Source: Sphingomonadales bacterium (GTDB lineage Bacteria; Pseudomonadota; Alphaproteobacteria; Sphingomonadales; Sphingomonadaceae). Taken from it: DNA of 64,000 nucleotides. The stretch is from NCBI GenBank assembly GCA_013297725.1, contig JAAFIB010000001.1:62001-126000 (forward strand), given 5' to 3'. The notes under the pieces were generated by a model that had not been told where the DNA came from, did not search any database, and saw only the letters and a list, made by a program, of their open reading frames with translations. Shown piece by piece: positions 20,976 to 60,638 of the stretch. The position numbers were made by a program, and so were the translations under genes. Within the stretch, counting starts at the first letter, position 1. Every line of letters starts with the position of its first letter.

Positions 20976-21024
20976 AGAATCGAACTGCTCCCTTCCCCGG
21001 CACGGTTGTTATCAGCAAGAAAAA

Positions 21025-21039: not shown

Positions 21040-21206
21040 TTTTTGCGAACTAGCCGGATATTTTAAGATTTCGCTTTGTTAGCAAACCGTTCTTTGATGA
21101 CGTCCCAACGTCCACATCGGAACCTTTTTGGCAACGGGTCATCGCAATTTATCGTTTTGGATATCGCCGCCATTGACAGCGAACTGAAAGCGCGGCAGTG
21201 ATTTGC

Positions 21207-21221
21207 GATAGCGCTACCATA
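21207..21221. promoter_or_regulatory. LacI-type operator, sugar-porter side
   Basis: GATAGCGCTACCATA. The core TAGCGCTA is intact (21209-21216) and the site differs at two of 15 positions from the copy before the epimerase gene. It lies about 70-80 bases upstream of the porter start. Confidence 0.7.
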
Positions 21222-21288
21222 ATGACGGACATGCAAATCGGCATCGGCCTGAAAATTGGCATAGCTTGGGGATAAGAGGGGAGTTTTC

Positions 21289-22695: not shown

Positions 22696-22726
22696 GCCTT
22701 TCAATGCTGCTAGATGCTAACTTTAG

Positions 22727-22760
22727 GAAAAGGCCTGCCTTGTGTGGGCCTTTTCTTTTT
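22727..22760 (+). terminator. Rho-independent terminator after the sugar porter gene
   Basis: GAAAAGGCC (22727-22735) pairs perfectly with GGCCTTTTC (22747-22755) around an 11-base loop and is followed by a run of T. It separates the porter transcript from the regulator gene. It also argues against any regulator start upstream of 22822, since such a start would fall within the hairpin region. Confidence 0.88.
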
Positions 22761-22821
22761 GGGTCATCCTGTGCAATGCTATTATTCGACAGTAACGGGT
22801 TATGCTGTTGATAGGGGTATT

Positions 22822-23871
22822 ATGAAGCAACGATCATCCAGAACACAATTGGGCGTACCCACAATCGCTGATGTTGCGAAAGAATCGGGTTATTCGCCTA
22901 TGACCGTTTCCCGAGTGATCAATGGCGAAAAAAATGTACGCGAGGCTACCCGGCAGGCGGTTCAAGATGCAGTTACCAAGCTTAATTATTCGCCAAACCT
23001 AGCTGCTCGTTCGCTCGCAGGTGCAGAGCAGATGAAGATCGCGATGCTATATGGCAACCCTAGTGCGGCCTATTTGAGCCGGTTGCTTGTCGGCACCTTG
23101 GAGCAGGCGCGGAAAAGCCATGTGCAATTGATCATCGAGCAGTGCAACACAGAGCAGGATATTGTAGAAGTCTTTCAGGATGTGATCGACAGCGGCGTTG
23201 ACGGCATCGTCCTGTCCCCTCCGCTTTGCGATTTTCAGCATGTAAGGGATCTTATCGAGAACAGCGATGTCCTCTCGGTTGTTGTTGCAAACTGGAGCCC
23301 ACCGGGTAAAACTTCCGTGGTCCGCATAGACGATGTTGAAGCCGCTGCGACGATGACACGCCATATCATCGCACTCGGGCACAAAAGGATCGGTTTTGTT
23401 ATCGGCAATCCCGAACAAAAGGCAAGCTCGCAGCGGCTGGAAGGTTTCAAACTGGCAATGCAGGAAGAGGGGCTTGAAATAGACCCCGATTGCGTTGTGC
23501 CCGGACTATTCACCTACAGATCAGGTTTGGAAGCTGCCGAGCGCTTACTGGACTTGGCTGAACGGCCAACAGCAATTTTTGCGAGCAACGACGACATGGC
23601 TGCGGCTGCCATCACTGTCGCGCACCGCAGGCATCTGGACGTACCAAAGGATCTGACCGTTTGCGGATTTGACGATACCGATTTTGCTTTGTCAATCTGG
23701 CCGGAGCTTACCACTATCCATCAGCCAATTGCCGATATGTCCCGTGCTGCTGTTGAGATTCTTGTTGATCACATTCGGGACCGGCGCAGTGGCCGCAGCC
23801 GTAGGCGCGAAGATCGTTTGCTGGACTTTACCTTCATTCGCCGGGATTCGGACGGCCCGCCCCCGCTTTGA
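22822..23871 (+). CDS. LacI-family transcriptional regulator
   Basis: 349 residues from the ATG at 22822, preceded by AGGGG. The frame is open back to 22714, but that extension overlaps a terminator and lacks family similarity. The N-terminal helix-turn-helix (about residues 13-35) reads TIADVAKESGYSPMTVSRVI, typical of LacI/GalR. The rest is a periplasmic-binding-protein-like sensor domain ending near DFTFIRRDS. It probably represses the xylose genes, the aldose epimerase and the TonB receptor through the repeated AATGTTAGCGCTAYC site. That link is inferred from motif type and proximity. No copy of the motif was seen directly before its own start. The effector sugar is unknown; xylose or a xyloside is most likely. 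Confidence 0.92.
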   Translation: MKQRSSRTQLGVPTIADVAKESGYSPMTVSRVINGEKNVREATRQAVQDAVTKLNYSPNLAARSLAGAEQMKIAMLYGNPSAAYLSRLLVGTLEQARKSHVQLIIEQCNTEQDIVEVFQDVIDSGVDGIVLSPPLCDFQHVRDLIENSDVLSVVVANWSPPGKTSVVRIDDVEAAATMTRHIIALGHKRIGFVIGNPEQKASSQRLEGFKLAMQEEGLEIDPDCVVPGLFTYRSGLEAAERLLDLAERPTAIFASNDDMAAAAITVAHRRHLDVPKDLTVCGFDDTDFALSIWPELTTIHQPIADMSRAAVEILVDHIRDRRSGRSRRREDRLLDFTFIRRDSDGPPPL

Positions 23872-36860: not shown

Positions 36861-37652
36861 TTACTCGCCGATGGCGTCTAGAAATGCCTCGGTCAAACCT
36901 TGCGGCGTTGGCACTATATTCTGCGCCGCAGGAAACACCCCACCATCGACATCTGCTTTATACTCGCGGAAAGCAGCGATGCTGTCGTTGTGCAAACGCT
37001 CATATTCTGAAGCATGATCCCGATAAGCCTTGGCATGGCGTGGAACGTGGCCCGTGTTTGTGCCCAAAATGTCAGTTGCAAAAAGATATTGTCCGTCACA
37101 GCCACTGCCTGCTCCCATGCTGATGGTCAATAAATCCAGCCTTGTCGTAATCGCGGTCGCAATCTCGGTTGGTACCAGCTCAACTTCAATGGCAATCGCG
37201 CCTGCGTCTTGAAAGCGTCTCGCCTGCTCATAGACCAACAGCGCCTCGTCCAACGTCTTGCCAAACGGCTTCATCCCGCCATACCAACCCGCCTTATATG
37301 GTACCAAGCCGACATGCCCTATGCATGGAATGCCTTCCCGCGTCATCGCTGCGATGTACTCCGCACTCATGCTGCAATACACCGCATCTGCGCCACCTTT
37401 AAGAAAGGCAAAGCCAAGCTCCAAGGCCTGCGGAATGGTTGTGACCGTTCCGTAGCCGATTGCATTCACAAAAAAGGAGTTTGGGGCCGCTGCTGCAATT
37501 AGATCGACTTTCGACGAAGGCATGCTGGCGGTTATGATGTCTATACCGGCCGCATTACATGCCTGTGCCTCCGAAATTGTCGTTACATAGACATCGGTTA
37601 GCTGGCGTACGCCTTTCAACCTTAGCAGGTCTTTAACAGTCAGTTTTGGCAT
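36861..37652 (-). CDS. PanB-like TIM-barrel protein lacking the usual metal ligands
   Basis: 263 residues, the length of ketopantoate hydroxymethyltransferase. Family landmarks remain: GHVGLVP (about 112-118), VELVP with the catalytic Glu, GAGSGCDGQYLF, and the NTGHVPRHAKAY end. The three magnesium ligands of E. coli PanB (Asp45, Asp84, Glu114) fall here in ITASMPS, FFVNAIGYG and DAVYCSMS and appear replaced. The enzyme is therefore unlikely to make ketopantoate. It lies alone on the minus strand in a sugar-acid locus, convergent with the nucleoside-hydrolase gene, with a GntR-type operator about 58 bases upstream. A 2-keto-3-deoxy acid aldolase or lyase role is a reasonable guess, not shown. 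Confidence 0.75.
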   Translation of the reverse strand: MPKLTVKDLLRLKGVRQLTDVYVTTISEAQACNAAGIDIITASMPSSKVDLIAAAAPNSFFVNAIGYGTVTTIPQALELGFAFLKGGADAVYCSMSAEYIAAMTREGIPCIGHVGLVPYKAGWYGGMKPFGKTLDEALLVYEQARRFQDAGAIAIEVELVPTEIATAITTRLDLLTISMGAGSGCDGQYLFATDILGTNTGHVPRHAKAYRDHASEYERLHNDSIAAFREYKADVDGGVFPAAQNIVPTPQGLTEAFLDAIGE

Positions 37653-37837: not shown

Positions 37838-37849
37838 TTGACAGGTTAG
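37838..37849. promoter_or_regulatory. GntR-type operator candidate before the oxidoreductase operon
   Basis: TTGACAGGTTAG, one mismatch to YTRAYATGTTAG (G for T at position 7), about 70-80 bases upstream of the oxidoreductase start. Confidence 0.5.
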
Positions 37850-37917
37850 TACCTGAAGAGGCGAGTCCGCGTTGCGACTGGGCGAGTAGAGTGGGATTGG
37901 CAAGAGGAGTAGGGGGA

Positions 37918-39072
37918 ATGGGTGCGGTGCACCATAAGGCGAAGTCTCTGTCGCTAGGAATGATAGGTGGAGGTGAAGGCGCATTTATTGGTGGCGTTCA
38001 CCGTGCCGCTATTGCGCTTGATGGTCGTTTTGAGCTTGTCGCAGGCGCTTTCAGTTCGAGCGTAGAGCGGTCTCTTTCGTCTGCGCTGGCGATCGGCCTT
38101 GGCGAAGGGCGAGGCTTTGCAAATTTGGCCGCAATGGTTGATGGCATGAGCGAACATCCCCTCAGAGCGGTGTCTATTGTCACGCCAAATTTTCGTCATT
38201 GTGAACAAGTAGTGGCAGCAGCCAATGCTGGCTTGGCTATTTTCTGTGAGAAGCCGCTAGCCTGTACATTACAAGAGGCGCGTGTAATGGCGGCGGCGGT
38301 TAGACGGGCACAAGTGCCTTTTGCTGTGGCGCATGTTTACAGTGGCTTTCCAATGGTGGCGCAGGCAAAGTATCTGGTCGCTAGTGGCATGCTGGGCAAG
38401 ATTCGCAGGGCCGACGTTGTCTATCTGCAGGGGTGGTTGGCTCAACCGATAGAGCTTGATGGCCAAAAACAGGCGGGTTGGCGAACTGACCCGAAATTGG
38501 CCGGTGCCGGAGCCAGCGGCGATATCGCAACGCACGCTCATCATTTGCTTGAACATGTTACCGGCGACACGCTATCCCACCTGTCTGCACGCCAATCGTC
38601 TTTAGTTGAAGGGCGCTTGATTGACGATGATGTTTCGATGCTCGGTGAAATGGCATCCGGTGCGCGGGTCACATTGACAGCCAGCCAGATCGCTATCGGC
38701 CGGGCAAATGGTCTGACGATATCAATTTACGGCGATCGTGGAAGCATAAGCTGGCAACAAGAGGATCCCGACGTCTTATGGCTTTGTCCAGATGAACAGC
38801 CGGAGCAGCGCTGGATCGCTGGTAGTGACAAAGGGTATTTGACGGAGGAGGCGCGCAGTATGTGCCGAACTCCATCCGGGCATCCGCGAGGGTTTATTGA
38901 AGCGTTTGCCAATCTTTATGGTGATTTCGCTGATCAGGTTGAATCGCGTTCCCCATCGGGGCGTTATCCCGGGCTGCAAGAGGCGGTGCGCGGCATGGCT
39001 TTCCTTGATGCTTTGGCAAAAAGCAGCAATGCGAATGGTGCTTGGACGCAGATTGAGGATGTGAAATTATGA
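37918..39072 (+). CDS. Gfo/Idh/MocA-family oxidoreductase
   Basis: 384 residues from the ATG at 37918, which directly follows GGAGTAGGGGGA; an in-frame GTG at 37891 lies before this site. The Rossmann start is LGMIGGGEGAFIGGVHRAAI. VTPNFRHCEQVVAAANAG leads to the hallmark FCEKPLA (catalytic Lys). GDIATHAHHLLEHVTG carries the substrate-binding Asp/His. These enzymes oxidise or reduce sugar hydroxyls with NAD(P), often at C3, and there is no signal peptide, so it is cytoplasmic. It overlaps the next gene by four bases (ATGA). As first gene of an operon with a GMC dehydrogenase and xylose-isomerase-like barrels, it probably handles a 3-keto sugar or re-reduces one. Confidence 0.88.
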   Translation: MGAVHHKAKSLSLGMIGGGEGAFIGGVHRAAIALDGRFELVAGAFSSSVERSLSSALAIGLGEGRGFANLAAMVDGMSEHPLRAVSIVTPNFRHCEQVVAAANAGLAIFCEKPLACTLQEARVMAAAVRRAQVPFAVAHVYSGFPMVAQAKYLVASGMLGKIRRADVVYLQGWLAQPIELDGQKQAGWRTDPKLAGAGASGDIATHAHHLLEHVTGDTLSHLSARQSSLVEGRLIDDDVSMLGEMASGARVTLTASQIAIGRANGLTISIYGDRGSISWQQEDPDVLWLCPDEQPEQRWIAGSDKGYLTEEARSMCRTPSGHPRGFIEAFANLYGDFADQVESRSPSGRYPGLQEAVRGMAFLDALAKSSNANGAWTQIEDVKL

Positions 39073-40139
39073 CTAAGGCTAAGATGAACCAGATCAAAGG
39101 CCCTGCCATTTTTCTGGCGCAGTTTATGTCCGATAATGCGCCATTCAACACCCTTGCCAGTGCAGCAAAGGCGATGGCCGATATGGGCTATAAGGGCATT
39201 CAGGTGCACAGCAACGATCCCCGCTGCATGGACCTGAAACTGGCGGCAGAGAGCAAAGATTATTGTGACGAGCTACGCGGGATCTGCGCAGAAAATGGCG
39301 TCGAGATAACCGAGCTTTCGACCCATATTCAGGGGCAGTTGGTTGCGGTTCACCCCGCCTATGATGATATGTTCGATGGTTTTTGCCCACCCGAGGTGCG
39401 CGGCAATCCAAAGGCGCGAACCGAATGGGCGCAACAGCAAATGCTGTGGGCGGCAAAGGCCAGTGGCAATTTGGGGCACGCTGCACATGTTACGTTCTCA
39501 GGCGCGCTTGCATGGCCCTATATGTACCCATGGCCGCAACGTCCCTCTGGATTGATCGACGCGGCTTTTGATGAATTGGCGAAGCGGTGGCGGCCGATCC
39601 TCGATGCCTTTGACGAAGCGGGTGTGGACCTTTGCTATGAAATTCATCCAAGCGAAGATTTGCACGATGGCCTAACATTTGAACGCTTTTTGCGGCACGT
39701 CGATAATCATCCGCGGGCGAACATTTTGTACGATCCTAGCCACTTCATCTTGCAGCAGCTCGATTATCTTGAGTTCATCGACATCTATGCCGACCGGATT
39801 AAAATGTTCCATGTGAAGGATGCAGAGTTCAACCCGAACGGTCGAGCTGGCGTCTATGGCGGCTATGCCGATTGGACCGATCGTCCGGGCCGGTTCCGGT
39901 CGCCGGGCGATGGCCAGATCGATTTTGGCGCAATTTTTTCAAAGCTGACCCAATACGGATTTGATGGGTGGGCCGTTGTCGAATGGGAATGCGCGCTGAA
40001 AGATTCGATGCAAGGTGCGCGTGAATCGGCGGTCTTTGTTGAAAATCATATCATCACACCAACTGCATTTGCCTTTGATGATTTTGCAAATGCCGGGACC
40101 GATGCAGAAACAAATAAGCGCATCCTCGGGCTGGCATAA
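39069..40139 (+). CDS. Cytoplasmic sugar phosphate isomerase/epimerase-like TIM barrel
   Basis: 356 residues, xylose-isomerase-like (AP endonuclease 2 type) barrel. Probable metal ligands are in CYEIHPSEDL (Glu), ILYDPSHFILQQ (Asp/His), MFHVKDAEF (His) and AVVEWECAL (Glu). No signal peptide. It overlaps the oxidoreductase by four bases, suggesting one pathway. Family members isomerise keto sugars or, in oxidative glycoside cleavage, catalyse elimination or hydration of 3-keto sugars. It is followed after 26 bases by an MFS transporter. Confidence 0.85.
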   Translation: MTKAKMNQIKGPAIFLAQFMSDNAPFNTLASAAKAMADMGYKGIQVHSNDPRCMDLKLAAESKDYCDELRGICAENGVEITELSTHIQGQLVAVHPAYDDMFDGFCPPEVRGNPKARTEWAQQQMLWAAKASGNLGHAAHVTFSGALAWPYMYPWPQRPSGLIDAAFDELAKRWRPILDAFDEAGVDLCYEIHPSEDLHDGLTFERFLRHVDNHPRANILYDPSHFILQQLDYLEFIDIYADRIKMFHVKDAEFNPNGRAGVYGGYADWTDRPGRFRSPGDGQIDFGAIFSKLTQYGFDGWAVVEWECALKDSMQGARESAVFVENHIITPTAFAFDDFANAGTDAETNKRILGLA

Positions 40140-40165
40140 AATAAAGAAAATGGAGGAGGGGTAAC

Positions 40166-41416
40166 ATGGATCGGATTCAATCAGGGGGCATAAACCCAAG
40201 AAAGCTATTCATCATCGGGGTGATCGCCTTGTTCACATCGGCGTTGAGCGCATCGTTAAGGCCGGCCTTGGGAGCCGATATCTCGAATGATGCCTTTGGT
40301 GGGTCGGGTGAACTGATTACCACCGCCCTTGGTGTCGCCTTTCTCTCCTTTGCCATTACAACCTTTATTATCAGCCCCTTGCTTGACCGGATTGGCATGA
40401 AGCAAACGATGATTGCAGCGGGAGTTTGCTTTATTGCAGCAGCGCTAACGATTGCCGCAGGGCATTGGGCGCCGCCTGAATGGGCATATCGCACAGTCTG
40501 GCTTGGTATGGTTTTGAACGGCATTGGCTGGGGATGTACCGAAGGTACAATCAATCCAATGACAGCAGCTATTTATCCAGAAGATAAGACGCACAGATTG
40601 AATGTCCTTCATGCGTGGTGGCCCGCCGGGCTGATCGCGGGTGGACTGATAGGATATGGCCTAGGAATTGTTAAAGCACCATGGTATCTTGGAATCTTGA
40701 TAATCGCTATCCCGGCAATCGTCTTCCTTTTCCTTATCAAGGGGGAAAATTTTCCAAAGACGGAAAGCCATGATCTGGGGGTTTCTGGCAGAGAAATGCT
40801 GACAGAAATTGTTCGTAACCCAAGCTTTTTCATCTGGTTTGCCCTTATGTTCCTGACCGCATCAACCGAACTGGCACCCGGCCAATGGGTTGATATTGCC
40901 TTGACTGATGTGGTGGGTATGCGTGGCATATTGTTGCTTGTCTTTGTTAGCGGCATCATGTTCGTTATGCGCCATTTTGCGGGACCAATTGCGCATCGCA
41001 TTTCATCTGTCGGCTTGCTTTTCGTCTCAAGCATCTTTGCGTTTGTTGGCTTGCTCCTGCTTTCCAACGCTCATAACCCAGCCATGGCATTGTTTGCAGC
41101 GGCAATCTGGGGCATTGGTGTGTGCTTTATGTGGCCGACCATGTTGGCGATCGCGGCTGAGCGTTACCCCCGCGGTGGCGCATGGACGATTGGCCTTATC
41201 GCTTCTGCCGGAGCGCTGGCAATCCATATCGTGTTGCCTAAACTAGGGAAAATCTACGATGTTGCCCTAAAATCGGGTGCAACCAAGGCGGAGGCAGCGA
41301 CAACGTCATTTGAAACCATCGCTTATTTCCCAGCGATCTTGGTAGTAGCTTTTGGCCTGATTTTGCTGGTTGAAAAGCTGACAGCTTTCCGCGTTGCCGC
41401 ATCAGAACAAAGATAA
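40166..41416 (+). CDS. MFS transporter
   Basis: 416 residues with 12 predicted helices and no signal peptide. GGAGGAGGGG precedes the ATG. The motif DRIGMKQTM after helix 2 is the MFS loop signature, and LGMVLNGIGWGCTEGTINP with HAWWPAGLIAGG are typical of FucP/GlcP-like bacterial sugar permeases. It is the third gene of the 37918-46253 operon, so it probably carries the product of the periplasmic oxidative steps, perhaps a keto sugar, across the inner membrane (inferred). Substrate unknown. Confidence 0.85.
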   Translation: MDRIQSGGINPRKLFIIGVIALFTSALSASLRPALGADISNDAFGGSGELITTALGVAFLSFAITTFIISPLLDRIGMKQTMIAAGVCFIAAALTIAAGHWAPPEWAYRTVWLGMVLNGIGWGCTEGTINPMTAAIYPEDKTHRLNVLHAWWPAGLIAGGLIGYGLGIVKAPWYLGILIIAIPAIVFLFLIKGENFPKTESHDLGVSGREMLTEIVRNPSFFIWFALMFLTASTELAPGQWVDIALTDVVGMRGILLLVFVSGIMFVMRHFAGPIAHRISSVGLLFVSSIFAFVGLLLLSNAHNPAMALFAAAIWGIGVCFMWPTMLAIAAERYPRGGAWTIGLIASAGALAIHIVLPKLGKIYDVALKSGATKAEAATTSFETIAYFPAILVVAFGLILLVEKLTAFRVAASEQR

Positions 41417-41431
41417 ATTGGGAGTCTAACA

Positions 41432-41962
41432 ATGAACACATCACGGCGTGACATACTGCAGGCAATGATGGCGCTGCCCATGGTTAGTCTTGTCGCTTCA
41501 TGCGGCATGGGCGGTGCTGGTAAAGCTGTAATGGGTAAGGATGAACTGGCGTTTCTATCGTCACTATCCGACACCATGATACCAACCACAGACACGCCGG
41601 GTGCGTTGGCTGGGAAGGTTCCGCAAACACTGGGCGAATTGTTGAACAGCTGGGCTTCGGCTGAAACCCGAGGCCGGTGGAGCACAACGCTCGCCGCGCT
41701 GAAAAAAGAGCTTGATGGCGATAAGGCCGGTTCGTTTCAGGCAGCTGATGCTGCCGAGCGGGCAAAACGGCTCGGTAAGCTTGATGCTGCTGTCTTTGGA
41801 TCGAACGAACATCCTTTGAAAGCCTATCGTGAGGTGAAATCTACCATCGCGACCGCCTATTATATGTCGGAACCCGGCGCGAATGAAGAGTTGCGCTATG
41901 AAGCGGTTCCGGGGCGTTTCGAGGGCTCTGCGCCGCTCGGCAAAACATGGGCAACAAGCTGA
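41432..41962 (+). CDS. Gluconate 2-dehydrogenase subunit 3-family protein (small subunit of a GMC dehydrogenase)
   Basis: 176 residues. The N-terminus has a Tat motif (SRRDILQ, residues 4-10) and a lipobox VASC near residue 24, indicating a Tat-exported, membrane-anchored protein. DTMIPTTDTPGALAGKVP matches the subunit 3 family, which partners a GMC flavoprotein and carries its export signal. The next gene is such a flavoprotein with no signal of its own, so the pair probably crosses the membrane together. No cytochrome c subunit is visible in the window, so the electron acceptor is unknown. Confidence 0.87.
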   Translation: MNTSRRDILQAMMALPMVSLVASCGMGGAGKAVMGKDELAFLSSLSDTMIPTTDTPGALAGKVPQTLGELLNSWASAETRGRWSTTLAALKKELDGDKAGSFQAADAAERAKRLGKLDAAVFGSNEHPLKAYREVKSTIATAYYMSEPGANEELRYEAVPGRFEGSAPLGKTWATS

Positions 41963-41997
41963 CATCTGATTTAAGAGTTTCGCAGGGAGTAGCGGGA

Positions 41998-43695
41998 ATG
42001 AGTGATTTTGACGCAATAGTGGTGGGCTCTGGAATGAGTGGTGGCTGGGTCGCCAAGGAGTTAACCGAGCGCGGGCTGAAGGTTCTGGTGATCGAGCGCG
42101 GCAAAGATATCGACCCGCTTAAAGACTATTCGGATATGAAGCAGCCATGGGAGAAGAAAAATCTTGATCGTGTGGCAGAGGACGAACTGAAACGCGACTA
42201 TGCGGTCCAGGGCGATGTCTATGCGATGTTTGAATCGAACAAGCATTTCTGGGTGAAGGATATTGATCACCCCTATGAAAGCCCCGAAGACCGGCCCTAT
42301 AAATGGCGGCGTGGCTACCATCTTGGCGGCCGCTCGTTGATGTGGGCGCGGATGTCTTATCGTTTGGCGCCGTTGGATTTCGAATCCAATCTGAAAGATG
42401 GGCACGGCGTCGATTGGCCAATCCGATACGAGGATATCGCGCCTTGGTATGACAAGGTTGAGACCTTTGCCGGAGTATCAGGCAGCAAAGAGGGGTTGGC
42501 GCAACTGCCGGACGGTCAGTTTCTGCCACCCTTTGAGATGACCGCAGCGGAGAAGGTTTTGAAGGAGCGGTTGGAGGCAAATTATCCAACGCGTAAAATG
42601 ATTATTGCGCGGTCAGCCAATTTGAAAACGGCAACAGAGGAGCATTTGGCATTGGGCCGCGGTCCTTGCCAATCACGCAACCTGTGTTTCCACGGATGCA
42701 GCTATGGCGCTTATTTCTCGTCCAATTCAGCAACCCTGCCGGCTGCCAAACGCACAGGCAATTTGACCATTGTGACCGATGCGATTGCCCATTCTGTGAA
42801 TTATGATGCGAAGACGAAACGTGTGACCTCAGTCAACGTTATCGACGCCAATACCAAGGAAAAGAGGACGTATACGGGCAAAGTCGTGTTCCTGAACGCC
42901 TCGGCCATCGCCTCGGCCATGATCCTGCTGAACTCCAAATCAGAGGCGTTTCCCAACGGCCTTGCTAATAGCAGCGATCAGGTTGGACGCAATTTGATGG
43001 ATCATGTGGGTGGAACACAAGTCACCGGTATTGTGCGGGGAATTGAAGATAAATATACCTTCGGACGCCGTCCGACTGTCAGTTACATTCCGCGCTATGG
43101 CAATGTTACCGAAAAAGATAAACCGTATGATCGCGGCTTTGCTTTTCAGGTTTATAGCGGACGGAGCGGCTGGTACGGTGAGCGTCCGGGCATTGGGCAG
43201 GAATTCAAACTAGCGAACCGTATGCCCGGTGACTGGACCATTACACTGGATCCGATGGGCGAAGTGCTGCCCTATTCTGACAACCGCGTGACGCAGCACA
43301 AGTCAAAAACAGACAAATGGGGCATGCCTATCGCTTACATCGATGCAACGATGCGGCAAAACGAAACAGCCTTAATGGAAGCAGCCGTCGCAGACGCAAT
43401 CGAGATATTGACTAAGGCCAAGATCGAGGTTCTGAACAACCCCGATCCCAAAAAGCCGAATGTGTCACCACCCGGGCAGAAAATTCACGAGATGGGCACT
43501 GCACGTATGGGTCGTGATCCAAAGACGTCCGTCTTGAATGGTTGGAACCAGGCGCATGATGTCCCCAACCTGTTCGTGACAGACGGCGCGTTTATGACAT
43601 CCAGCGCGGCACAAAATCCTTCACTGACATATATGGCATTTTCGGCACGTGCGGCCAATCATGCAGCCGATCTGTTGAAGGAAGGTAAAATCTGA
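41998..43695 (+). CDS. GMC-family FAD sugar dehydrogenase (large subunit)
   Basis: 565 residues from the ATG at 41998, chosen because GGGAGTAGCGGGA precedes it; an in-frame ATG at 41947 overlaps the subunit 3 gene. The FAD-binding motif is VVGSGMSGGWVAKEL, then YHLGGRSLMWARMSYR (FAD attachment loop), CFHGCSYG with two Cys, and the C-terminal catalytic HEMGTARMG and SSAAQNPSLTYMAFSARAAN with the His/Asn pair. Relatives with subunit 3 include glucoside 3-dehydrogenase and gluconate 2-dehydrogenase. Expected role: periplasmic oxidation of a sugar or glycoside, probably at C3. Its last base is shared with the start of the next gene. Confidence 0.88.
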   Translation: MSDFDAIVVGSGMSGGWVAKELTERGLKVLVIERGKDIDPLKDYSDMKQPWEKKNLDRVAEDELKRDYAVQGDVYAMFESNKHFWVKDIDHPYESPEDRPYKWRRGYHLGGRSLMWARMSYRLAPLDFESNLKDGHGVDWPIRYEDIAPWYDKVETFAGVSGSKEGLAQLPDGQFLPPFEMTAAEKVLKERLEANYPTRKMIIARSANLKTATEEHLALGRGPCQSRNLCFHGCSYGAYFSSNSATLPAAKRTGNLTIVTDAIAHSVNYDAKTKRVTSVNVIDANTKEKRTYTGKVVFLNASAIASAMILLNSKSEAFPNGLANSSDQVGRNLMDHVGGTQVTGIVRGIEDKYTFGRRPTVSYIPRYGNVTEKDKPYDRGFAFQVYSGRSGWYGERPGIGQEFKLANRMPGDWTITLDPMGEVLPYSDNRVTQHKSKTDKWGMPIAYIDATMRQNETALMEAAVADAIEILTKAKIEVLNNPDPKKPNVSPPGQKIHEMGTARMGRDPKTSVLNGWNQAHDVPNLFVTDGAFMTSSAAQNPSLTYMAFSARAANHAADLLKEGKI

Positions 43696-44573
43696 TGAAG
43701 CATTTTGAAACAATGGGGCGCCGCACTTTTCTGACATCAGCCGCGTTTTTCGGCGCCAGCGCAATGGTCAGCGGTTGCGGAGCGCGCATGGGGAATCCTT
43801 TGCCGGCTGCAGGGAACCGCAAGCTAGAAAAGATCGGCATCCAGATTTATACTGTTCGCGATCTGCTGAAGACCGATCATGTCGGCACTATCAAGATGCT
43901 GGCAAAGATCGGCTACAACGAGCTTGAATATGCGTACCTTCCCGACATGCCCTATACAGCAAAGGAATTTCGCAAGACCGCGGAGGGCGAGGGACTAACC
44001 ATTCCCTCATGTGGCTTTCAACCAGAGCATTTCTTCAACGAGATCCAGACGGTTCTGGATGTAACCGGAGATTTGGGCGCGACCTATGCTTTTAATGGCT
44101 GGATCCATCCGCCGGATCGTACTTTGCCGGGATTAATGAAGCAGGCGGAGGCTTTTAACGGTTTCGGTGAAACGCTTCAGAAAGCGGGCTTGAAATACAT
44201 GTATCACAACCATGATTTTGAATTCACCAAGATCGACGGTGACAAAACGATACAGGATGTGCTGATGCAGAATACGGATCCAGCGTTGGTCGATTTTGAA
44301 ATGGATATGTATTGGGTCACGCATGGTGGCGGGAACATTATCGATTATCTTACGCGCTATCCAGGCCGCTTTAAATGCTGTCATATCAAAGACCGCACTG
44401 CCGACGGCAAAATGGTCAATGTCGGCGAAGGCGCGATCGACTGGAGGGCAGCCATTGGCAAAGCGAAAGACGTCGGCATCAAACATTATTTCGTTGAGCA
44501 TGACGAGCCTGTAGCACCGGTCGCGGTAGGGGTTGCCAAAAGCTACAATTATGTCCGCAATCTGAGATTTTGA
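43695..44573 (+). CDS. Tat-exported lipoprotein with xylose isomerase-like TIM barrel, paralogue 1
   Basis: 292 residues. The Tat motif GRRTFLT (residues 8-14) is followed by lipobox VSGC. The barrel has candidate metal ligands in YHNHDFEF, LVDFEMDMYWV, KCCHIKDRTA and YFVEHDEP. The start overlaps the GMC stop (TGATG), indicating translational coupling with the dehydrogenase. It shares most motifs with the next gene. Known cousins include 3-keto-glycoside lyases and hydratases. An exported barrel next to a periplasmic sugar oxidase suggests that it splits or hydrates the oxidised glycoside (inference). Confidence 0.87.
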   Translation: MKHFETMGRRTFLTSAAFFGASAMVSGCGARMGNPLPAAGNRKLEKIGIQIYTVRDLLKTDHVGTIKMLAKIGYNELEYAYLPDMPYTAKEFRKTAEGEGLTIPSCGFQPEHFFNEIQTVLDVTGDLGATYAFNGWIHPPDRTLPGLMKQAEAFNGFGETLQKAGLKYMYHNHDFEFTKIDGDKTIQDVLMQNTDPALVDFEMDMYWVTHGGGNIIDYLTRYPGRFKCCHIKDRTADGKMVNVGEGAIDWRAAIGKAKDVGIKHYFVEHDEPVAPVAVGVAKSYNYVRNLRF

Positions 44574-44575
44574 TC

Positions 44576-45436
44576 ATGAACCGCCGTCAGTTCACTGTTG
44601 CCGCATCGTCACTGGGCTTTACTGCTATGCTGCATGGCTGCGCTGGGGAACTCCTCAGCGCTCCCGCATCTGCGTCGGCGCGAAAGCTCGACAAAATCGG
44701 CATCCAGCTGTGGACTGTTCGAGATCTTTTCAAACAGGATCCAATCGCGACATTCAAAATGCTTGCAAAAACCGGCTTTGATCAGGTCGAGTTCGCCAAT
44801 CTGGAGCCATTGCCGATAACGCCGCGCGAGTTGCGCAAAGTAGCGGATGATCTTGGCATCAGCTTTCCAGCAACCCATTTCAATCCGAACTTTTTTTTCG
44901 AAATGCCGCAAAAAGTCGTCGATATCGCAGGCGAACTCGGTTGCAAATACGTCATCAACAGCTGGATTGATGAAAAGGATCGCACAGCGGCGGGTTATCG
45001 GCGCCAGGCTGACATGTTTAACAAGGTTGCAGCAGATATGCGCCGGGCCGGTTTGCGTTATGGCTTTCATAATCACGAATTTGAATTCCAGAAAATGGAC
45101 GGTAATTTAACGGGTTATGATCTTTTGATGCAGAATACTGATCCTACCCTCATCGATATGGAAATCGATATGTACTGGGTCGTCGATGGCGGGGCGGATA
45201 TCATTGATCTGCTCACGCGTTATCCAGGAAGGTTCAAATCGTGCCATATTAAAGATCGCACTGCTGATGGCAAAATGGTTGATGTCGGCAAAGGCGTGAT
45301 CGACTGGAAAGCTGCATTGGCTAAGGCGATGGACGTCGGCGTCGAGCTTTATTTCTTTGAGCATGATCAACCTGCAGCCCCGGTCGCATCCGCGGTTGCC
45401 TCCAGCCATGACTATCTGCGCGCTCTGCGTTTTTGA
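44576..45436 (+). CDS. Tat-exported lipoprotein with xylose isomerase-like TIM barrel, paralogue 2
   Basis: 286 residues from the ATG at 44576, two bases after the previous stop. The Tat motif is NRRQFTVA and the lipobox LHGC. Its ligands match paralogue 1: FHNHEFEF, LIDMEIDMYWV, KSCHIKDRTA and YFFEHDQP. The shared segment TRYPGRFK-CHIKDRTADGKMV shows a recent duplication. The sequences differ around the mouth of the barrel (LEPLPITPREL against LPDMPYTAKEF), so the two probably perform successive or alternative reactions. Confidence 0.87.
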   Translation: MNRRQFTVAASSLGFTAMLHGCAGELLSAPASASARKLDKIGIQLWTVRDLFKQDPIATFKMLAKTGFDQVEFANLEPLPITPRELRKVADDLGISFPATHFNPNFFFEMPQKVVDIAGELGCKYVINSWIDEKDRTAAGYRRQADMFNKVAADMRRAGLRYGFHNHEFEFQKMDGNLTGYDLLMQNTDPTLIDMEIDMYWVVDGGADIIDLLTRYPGRFKSCHIKDRTADGKMVDVGKGVIDWKAALAKAMDVGVELYFFEHDQPAAPVASAVASSHDYLRALRF

Positions 45437-45452
45437 GATTGTGAGACTGAAT

Positions 45453-46253
45453 ATGATCGATGTAGATATGCCATATGCGTTGCCTGGCGGCGCCATTGAT
45501 GACTTTCGTGCCAATGGTTTTGTTAAGCTGTCAAACGTTCTTTCACCCGAAACGCTGGAGCATTTTGGCGCAGAAATTTCGCGCCTGACGCTCGAACTGA
45601 ATACCCAGCATCTGCCGCTCGAAGAGCGATCAACATACGACAAAGCATTTCTGCAGGTGATGAACCTGTGGCGTTCTAGCGACATTGCCAAACAGTTTGT
45701 CTTTGGAAAGACGATAGCCGGGATTGCAGCTCAGCTAATGGAGGTGGATGGCGTGCGGCTTTACCACGACCAATCGCTTTATAAGGAACCAAGCGGTGGT
45801 ATTACCCCCGCACATGCCGACCAATATTATTGGCCGTTGGCGTCTGATCGCACGATAACAGCATGGATACCTCTGCAGGCTGTGCCCGATGATATGGGAC
45901 CGCTGGCCTTTTATAGCGGTAGCCAAAGGTTTCAGCAGGGCCGTGATGTCCCGATTTCTGATGAAAGCGAGGCGTTGATCACTGCGGCGATGGAGAAAGA
46001 GGGATTTCCATTATTCACCGAAGCATTCGCGTTGGGTGACGTGAGTTTTCATTCAGGTTGGACCTTTCATCGCGCGGGGCCAAACCGGTCTAGCCGACCT
46101 AGATCAGTAATGACGATGATCTATATGGATGCTGCAATGCGGCTTGCTGCGCCCACCAATCATATGCAGCAAGCAGATTGGGACCAATGGTGCCCAGGGG
46201 CGGTCATTGGCGAGATCATCGATACCGAGATTAATCCGCGCCTTTATTCCTAA
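45453..46253 (+). CDS. Phytanoyl-CoA dioxygenase (PhyH) family Fe(II)/2-oxoglutarate oxygenase
   Basis: 266 residues from the ATG at 45453; a longer in-frame start would overlap the preceding gene. The iron triad is HxD in PAHADQYYWPL and the distal His in SFHSGWTFHRAGPN, and the 2-oxoglutarate Arg is probably in SRPRSVMTM. No signal peptide, hence cytoplasmic. It is the last gene of the operon. PhyH oxygenases hydroxylate or demethylate small molecules; in a glycan locus oxidation of a methylated or deoxy sugar is plausible but unproven. A second, distant PhyH gene is at 51741-52556. Confidence 0.85.
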   Translation: MIDVDMPYALPGGAIDDFRANGFVKLSNVLSPETLEHFGAEISRLTLELNTQHLPLEERSTYDKAFLQVMNLWRSSDIAKQFVFGKTIAGIAAQLMEVDGVRLYHDQSLYKEPSGGITPAHADQYYWPLASDRTITAWIPLQAVPDDMGPLAFYSGSQRFQQGRDVPISDESEALITAAMEKEGFPLFTEAFALGDVSFHSGWTFHRAGPNRSSRPRSVMTMIYMDAAMRLAAPTNHMQQADWDQWCPGAVIGEIIDTEINPRLYS

Positions 46254-48333: not shown

Positions 48334-49149
48334 TTAATGTTCCACTGACGAAAAGAATGACAATGTTGCAGGAAGGCGCGCGGCCCAATAGGACCATTCG
48401 TGTCCGCCGCGATGCTCCGCATATTCATGAGCAATTTTTGCCGAGACGAGTTTGTCGCGCAACGCACGGTTATACCTGATCAAAGGATCATCCACACCAC
48501 AATCAATGCAAAGCGGAGGCAGGGCTGTGTCAGCAGATTGCAGCGCGGTGAAGACATCCATATCCGCTGGCGCCTTGCTCCAACCACTGCGGTCATCAGC
48601 AGTGAATTCAGCAAGTTGATCAATATGAGTGATGGAAGAATGCGCCGCCACTGCCTTGAACCGATCTGGATATTTGCCCGCAAGGTGCATCGCACCAAAT
48701 CCGCCCATGCTAAGTCCGCTTATGCAAACGGGTGATCCATCACCGACAGCAGGGCACGCAAGCGCTGCAATGGCTGGCACTTCATCCAAAATCCAGCGTT
48801 CCGGGTCGTGTTTTTGATGGGGAACATAGCCTGATCCCAAACCCCATAGGCCGTCACTCGGCATAGCAAGCACGCAAGGGGCGATGCTGCCGTCAGCGAT
48901 CATTTGCGCGGCAACTCGGTGTGCCCCTGCTTTCATGGCCCATGCCCAATGCGACCCATAGACGCCGTGTAGCAAGATATAGACAGGCAAGTTTTTAAGA
49001 CCGCTGGCGTGTTCAGGCACAAACAGAGTCACGTCACCGCGGCGCCCAAGTGCTGCGCTGCTGACGGTGACATGGCGTAAACCTTCGCTTTCAAACGCCG
49101 GATCGCTGATTTCGACGATTGAAAAGCTTATGTCTTTACGCACGGTCAT
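48334..49149 (-). CDS. Esterase D / S-formylglutathione hydrolase-like serine esterase
   Basis: 271 residues, alpha/beta hydrolase. The nucleophile elbow is GLSMGGFG, the oxyanion region VYILLHGVYGSHWAW, the acid Asp in DCGVDDPL and the His in RGGHEWSYW. No signal peptide. It overlaps the alcohol dehydrogenase by four bases (ATGA), so the two probably act together, as S-formylglutathione hydrolase does with class III alcohol dehydrogenase. Acetylxylan- or feruloyl-type esterase activity is the main alternative. Confidence 0.82.
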   Translation of the reverse strand: MTVRKDISFSIVEISDPAFESEGLRHVTVSSAALGRRGDVTLFVPEHASGLKNLPVYILLHGVYGSHWAWAMKAGAHRVAAQMIADGSIAPCVLAMPSDGLWGLGSGYVPHQKHDPERWILDEVPAIAALACPAVGDGSPVCISGLSMGGFGAMHLAGKYPDRFKAVAAHSSITHIDQLAEFTADDRSGWSKAPADMDVFTALQSADTALPPLCIDCGVDDPLIRYNRALRDKLVSAKIAHEYAEHRGGHEWSYWAARLPATLSFFSSVEH

Positions 49150-50270
49150 CCCGAAAATCCTTCATGCACTATGACATGCTTGCCGCCATGTGCATCGGCC
49201 TCTGCAAGTGCTGCAAGTGCATCGTCAAAATGCCATGTTTTAGAAATCTGTGCTGCCAAATCCAAATTGCCCTTATCGTGCATATTGAAAATACGAGGGA
49301 AATCACGAGCCGGTACGCAACCACCGTAAAGGGCTGCGATATATTTTTTGTTCCATAGAAATGGGGGTAGTTCTACATTGGGTAGCGATGGTGCAGCGTT
49401 AAAGCCGCTAACCTGAATCGCGGTTCCGCCCATGCGGATTAGCTTTAGCGGGGCAAAGGCAAGCGCCAATATTCCAGTACACTCAAACGCATGGTCAGCT
49501 CCAGGGCCGGTGATCGCCCGCACTGACTTCGCCAAAATGTCCATGTCATCATCGCTGGGCAAGCTGTGCGTTGCACCGAATTGTTGTGCGCGCTGCCGTA
49601 CCATTTCGCAGCGGTCAATCGCAATGATCTTATCAGCGCCTGCTGCTCGCGCCGCCTGAATAATGTTCAGACCCACACTGCCGCAACCGATGACGACAAC
49701 GGACTGGCCAGCTTGCACATCAGCGATGTTCCACACCGATCCCGTACCAGTCATGACCGCGCAGCCAATAATGCAGGCCAAGGCGAAATCGAGCGTGTCA
49801 GGAATTTTCGTAACCGCTGCTTCATCGACAAGCATCACTTCAGCCATTGTGCCCAGATTGAACATGCGACCGATCTCTGTGCCGTTTTCTCGGGCCGCCA
49901 TTGGCACAGGCCTCGCCAGTGCATGGGGGCCATGGCGTTGTGCTTCGATTGAACAGAGCGCAGGCAAGTCATGATCACACATTGCGCAGTGGCCGCATGG
50001 AATAGCCCAATTCAGCATCACGCGGTCGCCTGTAGTAAAACCGGTCACGCCTTTACCAACCGCATGCACGACGCCTGCGCCTTCGTGGCCCATGATGAAA
50101 CGGCCAGGCCAATGGATAGAATGAATGTCGGTGTGGCATATGCCGGATGCGCGCAGTGCTAGTTGCACCTGATAGGGGCCAGGGGCTGCAACCTCTACGC
50201 GCCCGATGATTGGGGCGTCACCGCTGCCAGAGATTATGGCCCGGACGGTAACAGCTGCATCATCTGTCAT
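49146..50270 (-). CDS. Zinc-dependent alcohol dehydrogenase, class III-like
   Basis: 374 residues, medium-chain dehydrogenase. The catalytic zinc site is SGICHTDIHS plus GHEGAGVV, the structural zinc Cys cluster is CGHCAMCDHDLPALC, and the cofactor site is VVVIGCGSVGLNII with an acidic Asp at the end of the next strand, indicating NAD. The sequence resembles glutathione-dependent formaldehyde dehydrogenases and related aryl/alkyl alcohol dehydrogenases. It overlaps GH30 upstream and the esterase downstream by four bases each. Likely cytoplasmic oxidation of a small alcohol or formaldehyde adduct. Confidence 0.86.
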   Translation of the reverse strand: MTDDAAVTVRAIISGSGDAPIIGRVEVAAPGPYQVQLALRASGICHTDIHSIHWPGRFIMGHEGAGVVHAVGKGVTGFTTGDRVMLNWAIPCGHCAMCDHDLPALCSIEAQRHGPHALARPVPMAARENGTEIGRMFNLGTMAEVMLVDEAAVTKIPDTLDFALACIIGCAVMTGTGSVWNIADVQAGQSVVVIGCGSVGLNIIQAARAAGADKIIAIDRCEMVRQRAQQFGATHSLPSDDDMDILAKSVRAITGPGADHAFECTGILALAFAPLKLIRMGGTAIQVSGFNAAPSLPNVELPPFLWNKKYIAALYGGCVPARDFPRIFNMHDKGNLDLAAQISKTWHFDDALAALAEADAHGGKHVIVHEGFSG

Positions 50271-51740: not shown

Positions 51741-52556
51741 TTATGCCACTTCGGGTCGGATGAATGGAACGGTCAATTCTTCGATCCCCTTATAGGCGTA
51801 AGGATCATTTCCGCTGATCATCACAATATCGCGGACGTCTTGACGAGGCACTGGCGGGGAGCCGAATGACCAAGGCAGATAAGACTGTGCGCTCATATAG
51901 TGGTTGACCAACGCTCGCCGTGCGCCCTGTGTTGTGTTGTTGAGCGATCGGTGCAGGATGTACCCGTTGAAGAACACCACGCTTCCCGCCTTTACAGGGA
52001 TAGCAACGCCGGAATCCCGTTCATAGGGCATGTCAGAAATTTCCTGATTTCCGTCGAACCGCGGATCATTGTGATGATGCATCGGATAGAGAACGCCGGG
52101 CTTATGGCTTCCCGGTTGCATCCACAGACATCCATTTTCAATGGTTGCGTCCTCCAGTGCGATCCACACCCCAATTAGCGACCGGTCACGGGTTGCGATG
52201 TAATATTCGTCCTGATGCCATGCTTGGCCGGGCTTACCTGCGTTTTTGACGAAAAGCATAGATTGCATCGCCTTTACGTCCGGTCCGATCAGCTGATTGA
52301 GAACAGCAACAATTGGCGCATAGCTTAACATGTCATGCATCAGCGGTGACACCTTGTGCGGGAAGTGTACAGCGAGCACGCTAGCCAGGGCTGTTTGCGC
52401 ATCTGTGCCGCTCATCACGCCCGGAATGTTGCCACGGTCGCCCATAACAATCGCCGTTGTTTCCTCCAGCAGCTGAGCGACTGTCGCCAAATCTACGAGA
52501 TCAGGAATTGCCACATAGCCTTGTTCTTCATATTCACGAGTTAAGTCGCTGCTCAT
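51741..52556 (-). CDS. Phytanoyl-CoA dioxygenase (PhyH) family Fe(II)/2-oxoglutarate oxygenase
   Basis: 271 residues, full length. Iron ligands are HxD in AWHQDEYYI and the distal His in GYILHRSLNN; the 2-oxoglutarate Arg is in GARRALVNHY. ENGCLWMQPGSHKPG is a typical family strand pair. No signal peptide. It sits between the clan-A glycosidase and GH30 inside a hydrolase operon and only weakly resembles the PhyH at 45453. Its embedding beside class III-like alcohol dehydrogenase and an esterase suggests oxidative removal of an O-methyl group (hypothesis). Confidence 0.86.
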   Translation of the reverse strand: MSSDLTREYEEQGYVAIPDLVDLATVAQLLEETTAIVMGDRGNIPGVMSGTDAQTALASVLAVHFPHKVSPLMHDMLSYAPIVAVLNQLIGPDVKAMQSMLFVKNAGKPGQAWHQDEYYIATRDRSLIGVWIALEDATIENGCLWMQPGSHKPGVLYPMHHHNDPRFDGNQEISDMPYERDSGVAIPVKAGSVVFFNGYILHRSLNNTTQGARRALVNHYMSAQSYLPWSFGSPPVPRQDVRDIVMISGNDPYAYKGIEELTVPFIRPEVA

Positions 52557-57624: not shown

Positions 57625-59130
57625 TCACTTTGCAGCGCAATATTCCTTAATGAAATCAAGGTGCGCAGGCATGTAATTGGCTGAATTCAGTACAGCCTGC
57701 TGAATTTCATCAAGTCGGGACTGGGTTTCATCAAGGCTCAGCAGTTGCGCCACGGGATCAAAGCTCCGTGGTTTCATCAACTGGCCAATCATTACGGAAA
57801 ACCAGCTGGTTTCGGTAAAAAGCTCTTCATTTTCACGAAACACACGCCCAGTGTTGAGGAACACCCGCATTTTCTCATCAAGCTTTTCCGGAACGTCCAT
57901 TGTCCGGCAATAATCCCAGAACGGCGTGTCATCCCGCTCAGTTGCTTTGTAGTGCAGGATCAGAAAGTCCCGCGTTTCTTCGGTGATGGTCTTCAATACG
58001 CGGTTGTAACGGTCACGATCAACGTCACTAAAACTGCGGTCCGGGAAGTTACTAAGCAGGTGTGCGATGCCTGATTGGATCATCCATATACTTGTCGATT
58101 CCAGTGGCTCCATAAAGCCGGACGAAAGCCCGATTGCCACGACATTCTTATCCCAATATTTCTGCCGTCGCCCGGTAACAAATTTAATGTAGCGCGGATC
58201 GGCCAAGGCTTTTCCATCTAGGTTGGCGAGCAGTTTGGCGGTTGCCTCATCATCGCTGATATAGTCGCTGCAATAGACATAGCCATTGCCAGTCCGATGC
58301 TGCAAAGGAATACGCCACTGCCATCCAGCCTCACGCGCTGTGGATCGCGTATAGGGAGTTATGCCTACAACGCTCTCACACGGCACAGCAACTGCGCGGT
58401 TGCAAGGCAACCACTTGGACCAGTCTTCATATCCGGCCTGCAGCGTCTGTTCGATCAACAGTCCGTGAAAGCCTGAGCAATCGATAAACAGTTCGCCTTC
58501 GATCCGGCTGCCATCCTCTAGCTCCACCGCCTCAACATGCCCGTCGGCGCCGCGCTGGTGCACTTGCGTGACTTTGCCTTCATGCCGAATTACGCCCAGT
58601 TTTTCGGCAAATTCGCGCAGGAATAGTGCATACAACCCTGCGTCAAAGTGAAAGGCATAAGCGATTTCGGACAATGGAGAATTACCAGCATCGAATGGGC
58701 GCATGAATTTGCCGAACTCAGCCGCTTTTGATTGAATGCAATATTCGTCGACCCAAGGCACCAAGCCCTGCTGGTAAAGACGCAACCAATAAGCATGAAA
58801 GGACACACCCTTCATATCGACGCCGTATTTGCCAAAGGGGTGGAAGTACGTGTGACCGATTTTGCCCCAATCAACAAATTGGATACCGAGTTTGAAGCTG
58901 CCTTTGGTGCGGCGGACAAAATCATTTTCATCAATGCCAAGCAGCCGGTTGAATACGTTGATCTGGGGTATTGTCGCCTCGCCGACACCAACGGTGCCGA
59001 TCGCGTCAGATTCAACCAGCGTTATTTCGGCATAATCACGGCCCAATACTTTGCTGAGCGCGGCCGCTGTCATCCAGCCTGCGGTACCACCGCCAACGAT
59101 CACAATTTTGCGAATGCGCTGATCCGTCAC
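57625..59130 (-). CDS. PrnA-like flavin-dependent halogenase (array member 4)
   Basis: 501 residues from a GTG start that overlaps the preceding stop (GTGA). FAD motif GGGTAGW (13-19), GVGEAT (48-53), catalytic Lys in SFKLG (Lys80, aligning with PrnA Lys79), the halogenase signature WQWRIP (270-275) and the Glu in MEPLES (Glu344) are all intact. The family uses reduced flavin, oxygen and halide to make hypohalous acid held near the Lys. It is last in a four-gene row divergent from a TonB receptor. No flavin reductase is in the window. The substrate is unknown; members in such receptor loci are not known to belong to an antibiotic pathway. Confidence 0.88.
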
Positions 59131-60638
59131 AGCATTGGTCCTTTACAGTGGCGTTCTATAAATTGTGCGTGGCCGGGCATCGCGCTTGCTGCCTGATGAA
59201 ACATTTGCGTCATCCGTCCCAGCATTGTGCCAACGTCCTGTACATTGACCGCGTCCGCAAGCGGATCATATTTTTCAGGGATCAGCCCTTGACCGATCAG
59301 CACCGCGCTCCAGTTACTATCGGTAAAAAGTTCATCCTGATAGCGGAACAAACGCCCCGTACCGTTGAACAGATCAATCTTGCGTTGCAGGCTTTCGGGG
59401 ATCTGCATCGCAGCGCACCGTTCCCAAAATTGCGATCCAACACGGGCGTTTGCTTTATAATGGAGGATCAGAAAATCCCGGATTTGCTCCCACTGGATCG
59501 CGGTCAGCCGGTTATATTCATCGCGCTCGTGTGAAGCAAAGCTGCGATCCGGGAAAAGCGCCAATAGTTTCGAAATGCCTTCCTGCACCAGATGGATGCT
59601 CGTCGATTCAAGCGGCTCCATAAAGCCACTGGCCAATCCTAGCGACACGACATTCTTATTCCACGCCTGTTTGCGGCGGCCTGTTAAGAACCGAAGCTGC
59701 CTCGGCTCGCCCAGCGCTTGTCCATCCAGATTTGCCAGCAATGTTGCTGTCGCCTGATCATCGCTGATATAGTCGCTGCAATAGACATAGCCATTGCCAG
59801 TTCTGTGCTGCAACGGGATACGCCATTGCCAGCCGGCATCGCGTGCCGTCGACCGTGTATAGGGCAACAAAGGTTCGGTGCGTGCCGAGGGAACAGCGAT
59901 TGCGCTATTGCATGGCAACCAATGCGACCAGTCTTCATATCCCGTCTGCAGCGTTTGTTCGATCAACAAGCCGGCAAAGCCCGAACAATCAATAAATAGA
60001 TCGCCTTCGATGCGTGCGCCATCCTCCATCACCACAGCATCGATAAAGCCATCGTCAGTGCGCTGTTCGACACGAATAATCTTGCCTTCACGCCGCGTCA
60101 CCCGCCGCGCCTCGGCATAACTGCGCAGGTAGCGGGCATAAAGCCCTGCGTCGAAATGATAGGCATAATCGAGCATCGAGGTCACGTTGCGAGGGTCAGG
60201 ACTTGGCAGGTCGAACCGGCTACCCCTGCTCATCACGTCACACATGTTGAAGTCACCAATCGGGTTGGTCATTCCGCGGGCACGCAGCATCAACCATATT
60301 TGATGAAATTTGATGCCATTGATGTCGCTGCCATAGGCGCCAAAGGGGTGCAGATATCTCTCACCTTCTCGCTGCCACCCGTCAAATTCGATCCCGAGTT
60401 TGAACGACCCTTGAGTTTTGGCAAGAAAATCGGCTTCGTCGATGCCGAGCATTGCATTGAATGTCTTGATCGGCGGGATTGTTGCTTCACCAACGCCGAC
60501 AATCCCGATTTCATCGGATTCGATCAGGATGATTTTCGTTGTGCCATTATCTTGCAACCGCGCCAGCGCCGCGGCCGCCATCCAGCCCGCCGTCCCGCCG
60601 CCTACAATGACTATATTCCGTACCGGCTCGCCGTTCAT
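59127..60638 (-). CDS. PrnA-like flavin-dependent halogenase (array member 3)
   Basis: 503 residues. GGGTAGW near residue 13, [14 protein letters not shown] (catalytic Lys), [10 protein letters not shown] and FMEPLESTS are all intact, so it should be active. It is closest to member 4: both contain the stretch [20 protein letters not shown]. The ATG overlaps the TGA of the upstream degenerate gene (ATGA), and its own TGA overlaps the next GTG, so translation is coupled along the row. Confidence 0.88.

Follow-up and report, generated by a model that had tools for sequence, protein, structure and literature searches.

A putative oxidation-elimination operon for glycoside utilization with paired Tat-lipoprotein barrels in a Sphingomonadales bacterium

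The analysed stretch of DNA (the window; 64,000 nucleotides, positions 62,001 to 126,000 of contig JAAFIB010000001.1 in assembly GCA_013297725.1 of a Sphingomonadales bacterium) contains a co-directional run of eight genes at positions 37918-46253, all on the + strand. Judged by sequence, this operon most probably serves glycoside utilization by oxidation and elimination. Open reading frames (ORFs) and Pfam matches give the order GFO, HYD, MFS, SUB3, GMC, LY1, LY2 and PhyH. With starts at 37918 (GFO), 41998 (GMC), 44570 (LY2) and 45453 (PhyH) the intergenic gaps are -4 to 35 bases, and the gene content, order and gaps given in a first-pass annotation of this DNA were borne out. Such a locus is not new in kind, and its chemistry is largely known (PMC10628242; PMC9007349); its unusual features are the tandem lyase homologues, one of them a variant, and the dioxygenase with the gene company of its relatives.

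The evidence set out below consists of the genes present, their families, their signal motifs, the retention of metal and base residues and a gene order that recurs; how the enzymes act, on what substrate, in which order and with what transport is inferred from it as follows. GMC and its Tat-exported (twin-arginine translocation) subunit would oxidise C3 of a glycoside, probably beta-gluco-configured, in the periplasm. The membrane-anchored, metal-dependent LY2, and LY1 with altered specificity, would then expel the aglycone or the reducing-end sugar by beta-elimination. The product would be 2-hydroxy-3-keto-glucal, which MFS would import, HYD would hydrate to 3-keto-glucose in the cytoplasm and GFO would finally reduce to glucose. 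A four-enzyme route of oxidation, elimination, hydration and reduction has been proposed for Agrobacterium (PMC10628242).

HYD (39069..40139, PF01261), a cytoplasmic TIM barrel, is 68.8% identical over 349 aa (570 bits, E 1.6e-170) to an Agrobacterium protein (PDB: 8ro4) titled AtHYD, 2-hydroxy-3-keto-glucal hydratase, and gave one match only in the genome (3.0 Mb in 148 contigs, searched for further copies). The first-pass annotation had left this barrel without a role; its identification as a hydratase homologue makes the locus match the published four-step route. The adjoining GFO (37918..39072, start ATG 37918) affiliates by Pfam with the cytoplasmic Gfo/Idh/MocA oxidoreductases (GFO_IDH_MocA), so that both the hydratase homologue and the neighbouring Gfo oxidoreductase of such loci are present. 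Its best PDB match was 3v5n (291 bits), it stayed under every NCBIfam cut-off, and it is proposed as a 3-keto-glucose reductase. GFO-type matches occurred in 82 of 90 comparison loci. This set comprises the best 80 of at least 597 HYD relatives, kept as loci from a search of genome contigs, together with L104-L112, chosen for LY matches, and L113, which was obtained when plasmids were searched with LY1; L103, taken for PhyH, was left out of the count. The MFS transporter (40166..41416, Pfam) is proposed as the importer of the keto-glycal or keto-sugar, a substrate suggested by gene linkage. It keeps the same position in L025 and L105-L107 and is also present in L104.

The two barrels LY1 (43695..44573) and LY2 (44576..45436 from ATG 44576, with TTG 44570 as alternative start) both belong to PF01261, and at both N-termini a twin-arginine motif is followed by a lipobox (regex). 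By sequence, both match 8tcd (AL1), 8tcs, 8tct (BT1) and the Agrobacterium eliminase AtOGE (8bvk). A structure model of LY1 (mean pLDDT 89.8, from a 17-row alignment) had AL1 and BT1, titled 3-keto-beta-glucopyranoside-1,2-lyases, as its top Foldseek matches (E 2e-21 to 4e-21). In structural alignments with VIA-align, the model reached Z 30.0 with AL1 (rmsd 2.0, 241 aligned), Z 24.6 with AtOGE and Z 21.1 with the 4-epimerase YcjR. The metal ligands of AtOGE are His132, Asp163, His189 and, weakly, Glu233, and His134 is catalytic (PMC10628242); equivalents of all five residues are present in both LY1 and LY2. The two proteins differ at the position of AtOGE His66, which is a metal ligand only in the shifted site of one subunit (PMC10628242). 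A His stands here in LY2 (His103 of the 288-residue ORF), AtOGE, AL1 and all 35 homologous ORFs (of which 33 are distinct, since L098 duplicates two of L097; 38 other rows in total), and it is replaced by Gly107 in LY1 (292-residue ORF). LY2 would accordingly be named a canonical lyase and LY1, because of Gly107, only lyase-like, with a predicted altered specificity. As a speculation, LY1 may cover substrates that DUF1080 proteins handle elsewhere; no DUF1080 3-keto hydrolase was found in the genome.

LY1 and LY2 are 54% identical and form sisters in the tree (support 100/99), with a longer branch for LY1 (0.52) than for LY2 (0.31). By path, the row that follows most closely is L025, with 37-38% identity to them. 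A query with LY1 returned this pair only in the genome, the best lyase relative in the family sample had 39% identity, and LY2 reached up to 42% with L107 (local alignment). No closer lyase relatives appeared at E 1e-55 in 384 other genomes of the class sample, and by these sequence comparisons the pair is private to this locus. In the tree L020, a Novosphingobium record, nests among the lyases of the window's family, which makes Sphingomonadaceae a likely placement for the organism. Both an RR motif and a lipobox occur in seven other LY proteins (L084, L025, L085, L004, L088, L090 and L017), L029 has the lipobox pattern without the RR motif, and most of the remaining LY proteins have the RR motif alone, which points to Tat-type export as a wider feature. 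A separate arrangement was seen in L110 (9093-10968), where two near-identical LY-like genes lie in tandem opposite a GMC-SUB3 pair.

SUB3 (41432..41962) affiliates with the gluconate 2-dehydrogenase subunit 3 family (PF13618, Gluconate_2-dh3, 70.5 bits) and carries an RR motif and a lipobox recognized by eye (MNTSRRDIL...LVASC); it has one match only in the genome. GMC (41947..43695 as longest ORF, likely start 41998; PF00732/PF05199, the N- and C-terminal GMC domains) retains the HE.G and NP.LT residues, whose conservation across 25 aligned sequences is 95% or higher. Neither a twin-arginine motif nor a lipobox was seen in the GMC sequence, as expected if the protein were co-exported with SUB3, and a Rhizobium dehydrogenase was co-expressed with a Tat protein (PMC10628242). 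The domains of GMC and SUB3 thus supply the flavoprotein dehydrogenase and Tat subunit 3 of such loci. GMC is proposed to be a glycoside 3-dehydrogenase exported with SUB3, a C3 specificity suggested by its gene company.

The pathway sketched in the first-pass annotation held to different degrees. Elimination by the lipoprotein barrels agrees with AL1/BT1 and AtOGE as best matches by sequence and fold, and the cytoplasmic completion is likewise backed by sequence and fold. The periplasmic 3-oxidation and the import by MFS are suggested by gene linkage.

GMC and LY were both present in 10 of the 80 best HYD loci, several of which are contig fragments, and in 20 of the 90 loci, a chosen set of which ten were picked for LY matches. 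The full order GFO-HYD-MFS-SUB3-GMC-LY recurs in L025, L105, L106 and L107, which argues against a chance assembly of the operon; L104 and L004 are rearranged, and L016 is without an MFS match. DUF1080 proteins accompany 11 of the 20 (L007, L017, L020, L021, L049, L051, L108, L109, L111, L112 and L113). L113 from Sphingomonas parapaucimobilis represents a fuller version with a cytochrome c, a second barrel, DUF1080 and LacI. Of the 149 genomes in the family sample, 16 gave an LY match at E 1e-30, a number that includes the genome of the window. L072 from Agrobacterium pusense was considered as the AtOGE operon and rejected: it holds a HYD-GFO pair beside ABC-transporter-like genes, without a GMC or LY match. 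HYD and GFO matches also occur together in Pelagibacteraceae-labelled records (L030, L032, L033, L036, L039, L040, L043, L045-L048, L050, L052, L053 and L061) and in L041, labelled Alphaproteobacteria, which suggests that the second half of the pathway is kept in streamlined marine bacteria.

In its flavoenzyme, eliminase barrel, hydratase (69%) and Gfo protein the operon resembles the GlycDH-AtOGE-AtHYD-Gfo operon of Agrobacterium tumefaciens (PMC10628242). It differs in that the lyases are Tat-lipoproteins, are duplicated and stand nearer to AL1/BT1 than to AtOGE, and in that MFS and PhyH are part of the operon. The lactose locus of Caulobacter crescentus has, next to lacABC, genes for a transporter, two epimerases and a reductase that are important for growth on lactose; it relies on DUF1080 proteins (PMC9007349), in contrast to the genome studied here. 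AL1 (8tcd) and BT1 (8tct) share the fold and the metal and catalytic residues with LY1 and LY2 and are their best matches by sequence and structure, although the identities are about 30-32% and LY1 is without the conserved His. With this operon, a recently described route of glycoside cleavage would gain a version that uses Tat-lipoproteins in the periplasm and includes a naturally altered active site, and the LY1/LY2 pair offers a direct paired test of the role of the conserved His. The AL1/BT1 lyases are reportedly the subject of a Nature paper of 2024, and a later 'GUL' paper in Angew. Chem. (2024) is said to deal with the Agrobacterium route.

Several results weigh against an oxidation-elimination pathway. 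The identity of LY1 and LY2 to AtOGE is 30-35% across 159-201 aligned positions. In the comparison with the LY1 model, 3obe, a Parabacteroides protein that is uncharacterised, was level with the lyases (Z 29.9), and LY1 lacks the otherwise invariant His (AtOGE H66, essentiality not proven) that LY2 retains. The best solved relatives of GMC are fructose dehydrogenase (146 bits) and glucose dehydrogenase (132 bits), enzymes that act on free sugars at C5 or C1. The operon is also without a cytochrome c gene, unlike L020, L108, L109, L111 and L113, and the role of the hydratase in Agrobacterium rests on preliminary evidence (PMC10628242).

The barrels might instead be epimerases or isomerases, either of 3-keto-glycosides in the manner of YcjR or of keto-sugars, with cleavage left to ordinary hydrolases. 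YcjR, a 3-keto-D-glucoside 4-epimerase, is of the same fold family and turns up in the fold search, and the missing His makes another reaction possible for LY1. We nonetheless regard this as quite unlikely: YcjR scored about 9 Z units below the lyases, the lyase metal ligands and base are kept, and the hydratase next door is best explained by formation of a glycal. The same hydratase also speaks against a reading in which GMC/SUB3 oxidises free sugars like a fructose or glucose dehydrogenase and the barrels are simple isomerases. The best solved relatives would fit such an enzyme, but GMC is far closer to GMC proteins from loci with LY and HYD (44-60% identity in eight other loci, up to 761 bits), which renders this the least probable of the alternatives considered.

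The first-pass annotation had also joined the operon with nearby fucosidases into a dual hydrolytic/oxidative locus, here taken as one for fucosylated glycans. A FucP symporter gene does lie upstream (TIGR00885, 365 bits, over the cut-off of 280) and a GH29 fucosidase gene downstream. A fucP is annotated near the locus in L113, and on an Emticicia plasmid (L114, 12508-12672) a 165-base coding sequence annotated as alpha-L-fucosidase follows PhyH-ADH-esterase genes. The fucosidase gene of the window, however, stands about 10 kb from the operon on the opposite strand as a separate unit, a single fucosidase-like match (L019, 70 bits) was found in a set of 105 loci (L003-L097, L104-L113) that includes many short ones, and the hydratase points to glucose. 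The proposal thus found little support and appears unlikely.

The operon closes, 16 bases downstream of LY2, with the gene for a PhyH-family Fe(II)/2-oxoglutarate dioxygenase (45453..46253, start 45453, PF05721) in which the H.D motif and the distal H, kept in 18 aligned sequences, are present. The first-pass annotation had listed it without explaining its role, and its relatives point to another module. None of the 90 comparison loci had a PhyH match. At E 1e-25, one other of 149 family genomes had a relative (G038, 42%), at E 1e-45 relatives were found in 3 of 349 phylum-sample genomes, the window's own counted, and at E 1e-60 in 1 of 369 genomes in the class of G732, namely G732 itself, and, for the order to which G782 belongs, in 13 of 299 genomes, G782 counted. 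The relative on the Emticicia plasmid is 54% identical. By these distributions PhyH is not a regular part of such loci, and it was probably added to the operon.

Two further genes come into consideration with PhyH. A zinc alcohol dehydrogenase (ADH, 49146..50270) and an esterase (EST, 48334..49149, PF00756) are encoded outside the operon, 2-4 kb away on the - strand. Homologues of both adjoin the 54-68% identical PhyH relatives in 10 of 15 loci, that is, in three of seven genera; the ten are L114, L126 and eight of one genus, with ADH and EST directly after PhyH except in L126, where one GH13 gene lies between. The window's ADH and EST are 45-48% and 44-54% identical, respectively, to these partners. 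No ADH/EST match was obtained in L003-L097 or L104-L113 (E 1e-8), and ADH at E 1e-75 was found in 1 of 286 order genomes, the window's own (at most six candidates scored per genome). The best solved matches of ADH were 8h2b (273 bits) and 8h2a (268 bits), followed at 161 bits by the next. These two, named ZoADH and FoADH, come from loci that demethylate 6-O-methyl-galactose with a P450, redox partners and an esterase; an ADH knockout grows poorly on 6-O-methyl-galactose, yet the enzyme showed neither formaldehyde detoxification nor activity on the methyl sugar (PMC10033563). The window shares with these 6-O-methyl-D-galactose loci the zinc ADH nearest FoADH/ZoADH, the adjoining esterase gene and an oxygenase; it differs in that a PhyH dioxygenase replaces the P450 and PhyH lies on the strand opposite to ADH/EST (PMC10033563). 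No cytochrome P450 match occurred among 36 window proteins scanned with Pfam. Two PhyH-related enzymes, FJS and PHYHD1, remove the methyl group of 2'-O-methyl nucleosides; in the case of FJS, formaldehyde was detected (PMC12709175).

Because ADH is nearest FoADH/ZoADH, PhyH relatives adjoin ADH/EST and FJS/PHYHD1 demethylate, PhyH is proposed as a stand-in for the P450, and its relatives suggest that, with ADH and EST, it may oxidatively O-demethylate a sugar or aglycone carrying a methyl group. PhyH would hydroxylate the methyl ether, and ADH and EST would carry the one-carbon unit to formate, perhaps via a formyl ester that ADH produces by oxidation of an O-hydroxymethyl intermediate and EST then cleaves. 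That the three form a P450-independent O-demethylation module for methylated sugars, feeding demethylated glycosides into the eliminative pathway with LY1 as a re-tuned second lyase, is put forward tentatively, as a rather improbable possibility. Against it, the partners are missing in four of the seven genera (no ADH/EST match at E 1e-8 near PhyH in L139, L140 at a contig end, L142, L144 and L150), the strands are opposite here, and the best solved matches of EST are ferulic acid esterases (82 bits), not formylglutathione hydrolases. Nor was there an ADH/EST match near PhyH in L103 (42% identical) or L115 (41%); L115 has an annotated iron-type alcohol dehydrogenase and an alpha/beta hydrolase nearby, without match to ADH/EST. 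GH13 and GH92 genes near PhyH in L125, L126 and L150, and GH92 in L144, imply that the substrate need not be a beta-glucoside. An assignment of ADH and EST to FrmA/FrmB formaldehyde detoxification was rejected since the NCBIfam cut-offs were not reached (167 of 544 bits and 52 of 282 bits, respectively) and FoADH/ZoADH, which among solved structures are nearest to ADH, showed no such activity (PMC10033563); a protein above the FrmA cut-off (598 bits) is encoded elsewhere in the genome.

About as doubtful as the demethylation module is a role of PhyH within the glycoside pathway, for example in hydroxylating the released aglycone. Its place at the end of the operon and the five of 15 relative loci in which no ADH/EST partner was seen would agree with this, but the 90 comparison loci without PhyH and the ten loci with adjoining ADH and EST would not. 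Literature searches aimed at sugar demethylation by such enzymes, which covered few subscription papers, listed no sugar demethylase from a glycan locus that belongs to the PhyH family. The PhyH-ADH-EST linkage makes it inexpensive to ask whether sugars are demethylated by Fe/2OG enzymes during glycan breakdown, and it bears on the role of the unexplained ADHs of methyl-galactose loci; if true, the module would provide a function for FoADH/ZoADH, enzymes with an unexplained reaction.

Additional observations concern the surroundings of PhyH and the rest of the window. In L144 (9651-10595) and L150 (7582-8412), proteins with similar starts and no Pfam match directly follow PhyH in place of ADH-EST. 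A second PhyH dioxygenase (51741-52556, - strand), 26% identical to the first over 105 aa, lies between GH30 and cellulase-like genes, and four consecutive tryptophan-halogenase family genes occupy 57625-63572 on the - strand; L126 also has one near its PhyH module. The G+C content was uninformative as to a foreign origin (operon 52.3%, window 53.1%). A possible, weak operator, CAGGTTAGTACCTG (37842..37855, + strand), was found by motif search 62 nt upstream of the GFO start. It is the single perfect match within the window, with three matches at one mismatch, a level attained in 17 of 100 shuffles; perfect matches occur in 23 loci, 22 of them within the HYD coding sequence and the 23rd in the window itself. 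Divergent from GFO, a PanB-like protein below the NCBIfam cut-offs is encoded at 36861-37652 (- strand). Farther upstream lie a 5275-aa ORF with a gene for an outer membrane efflux protein next to it (1790-17617, - strand) and, at 18204-23871, genes for a xylose isomerase, a xylulokinase, a sugar transporter and a LacI regulator.

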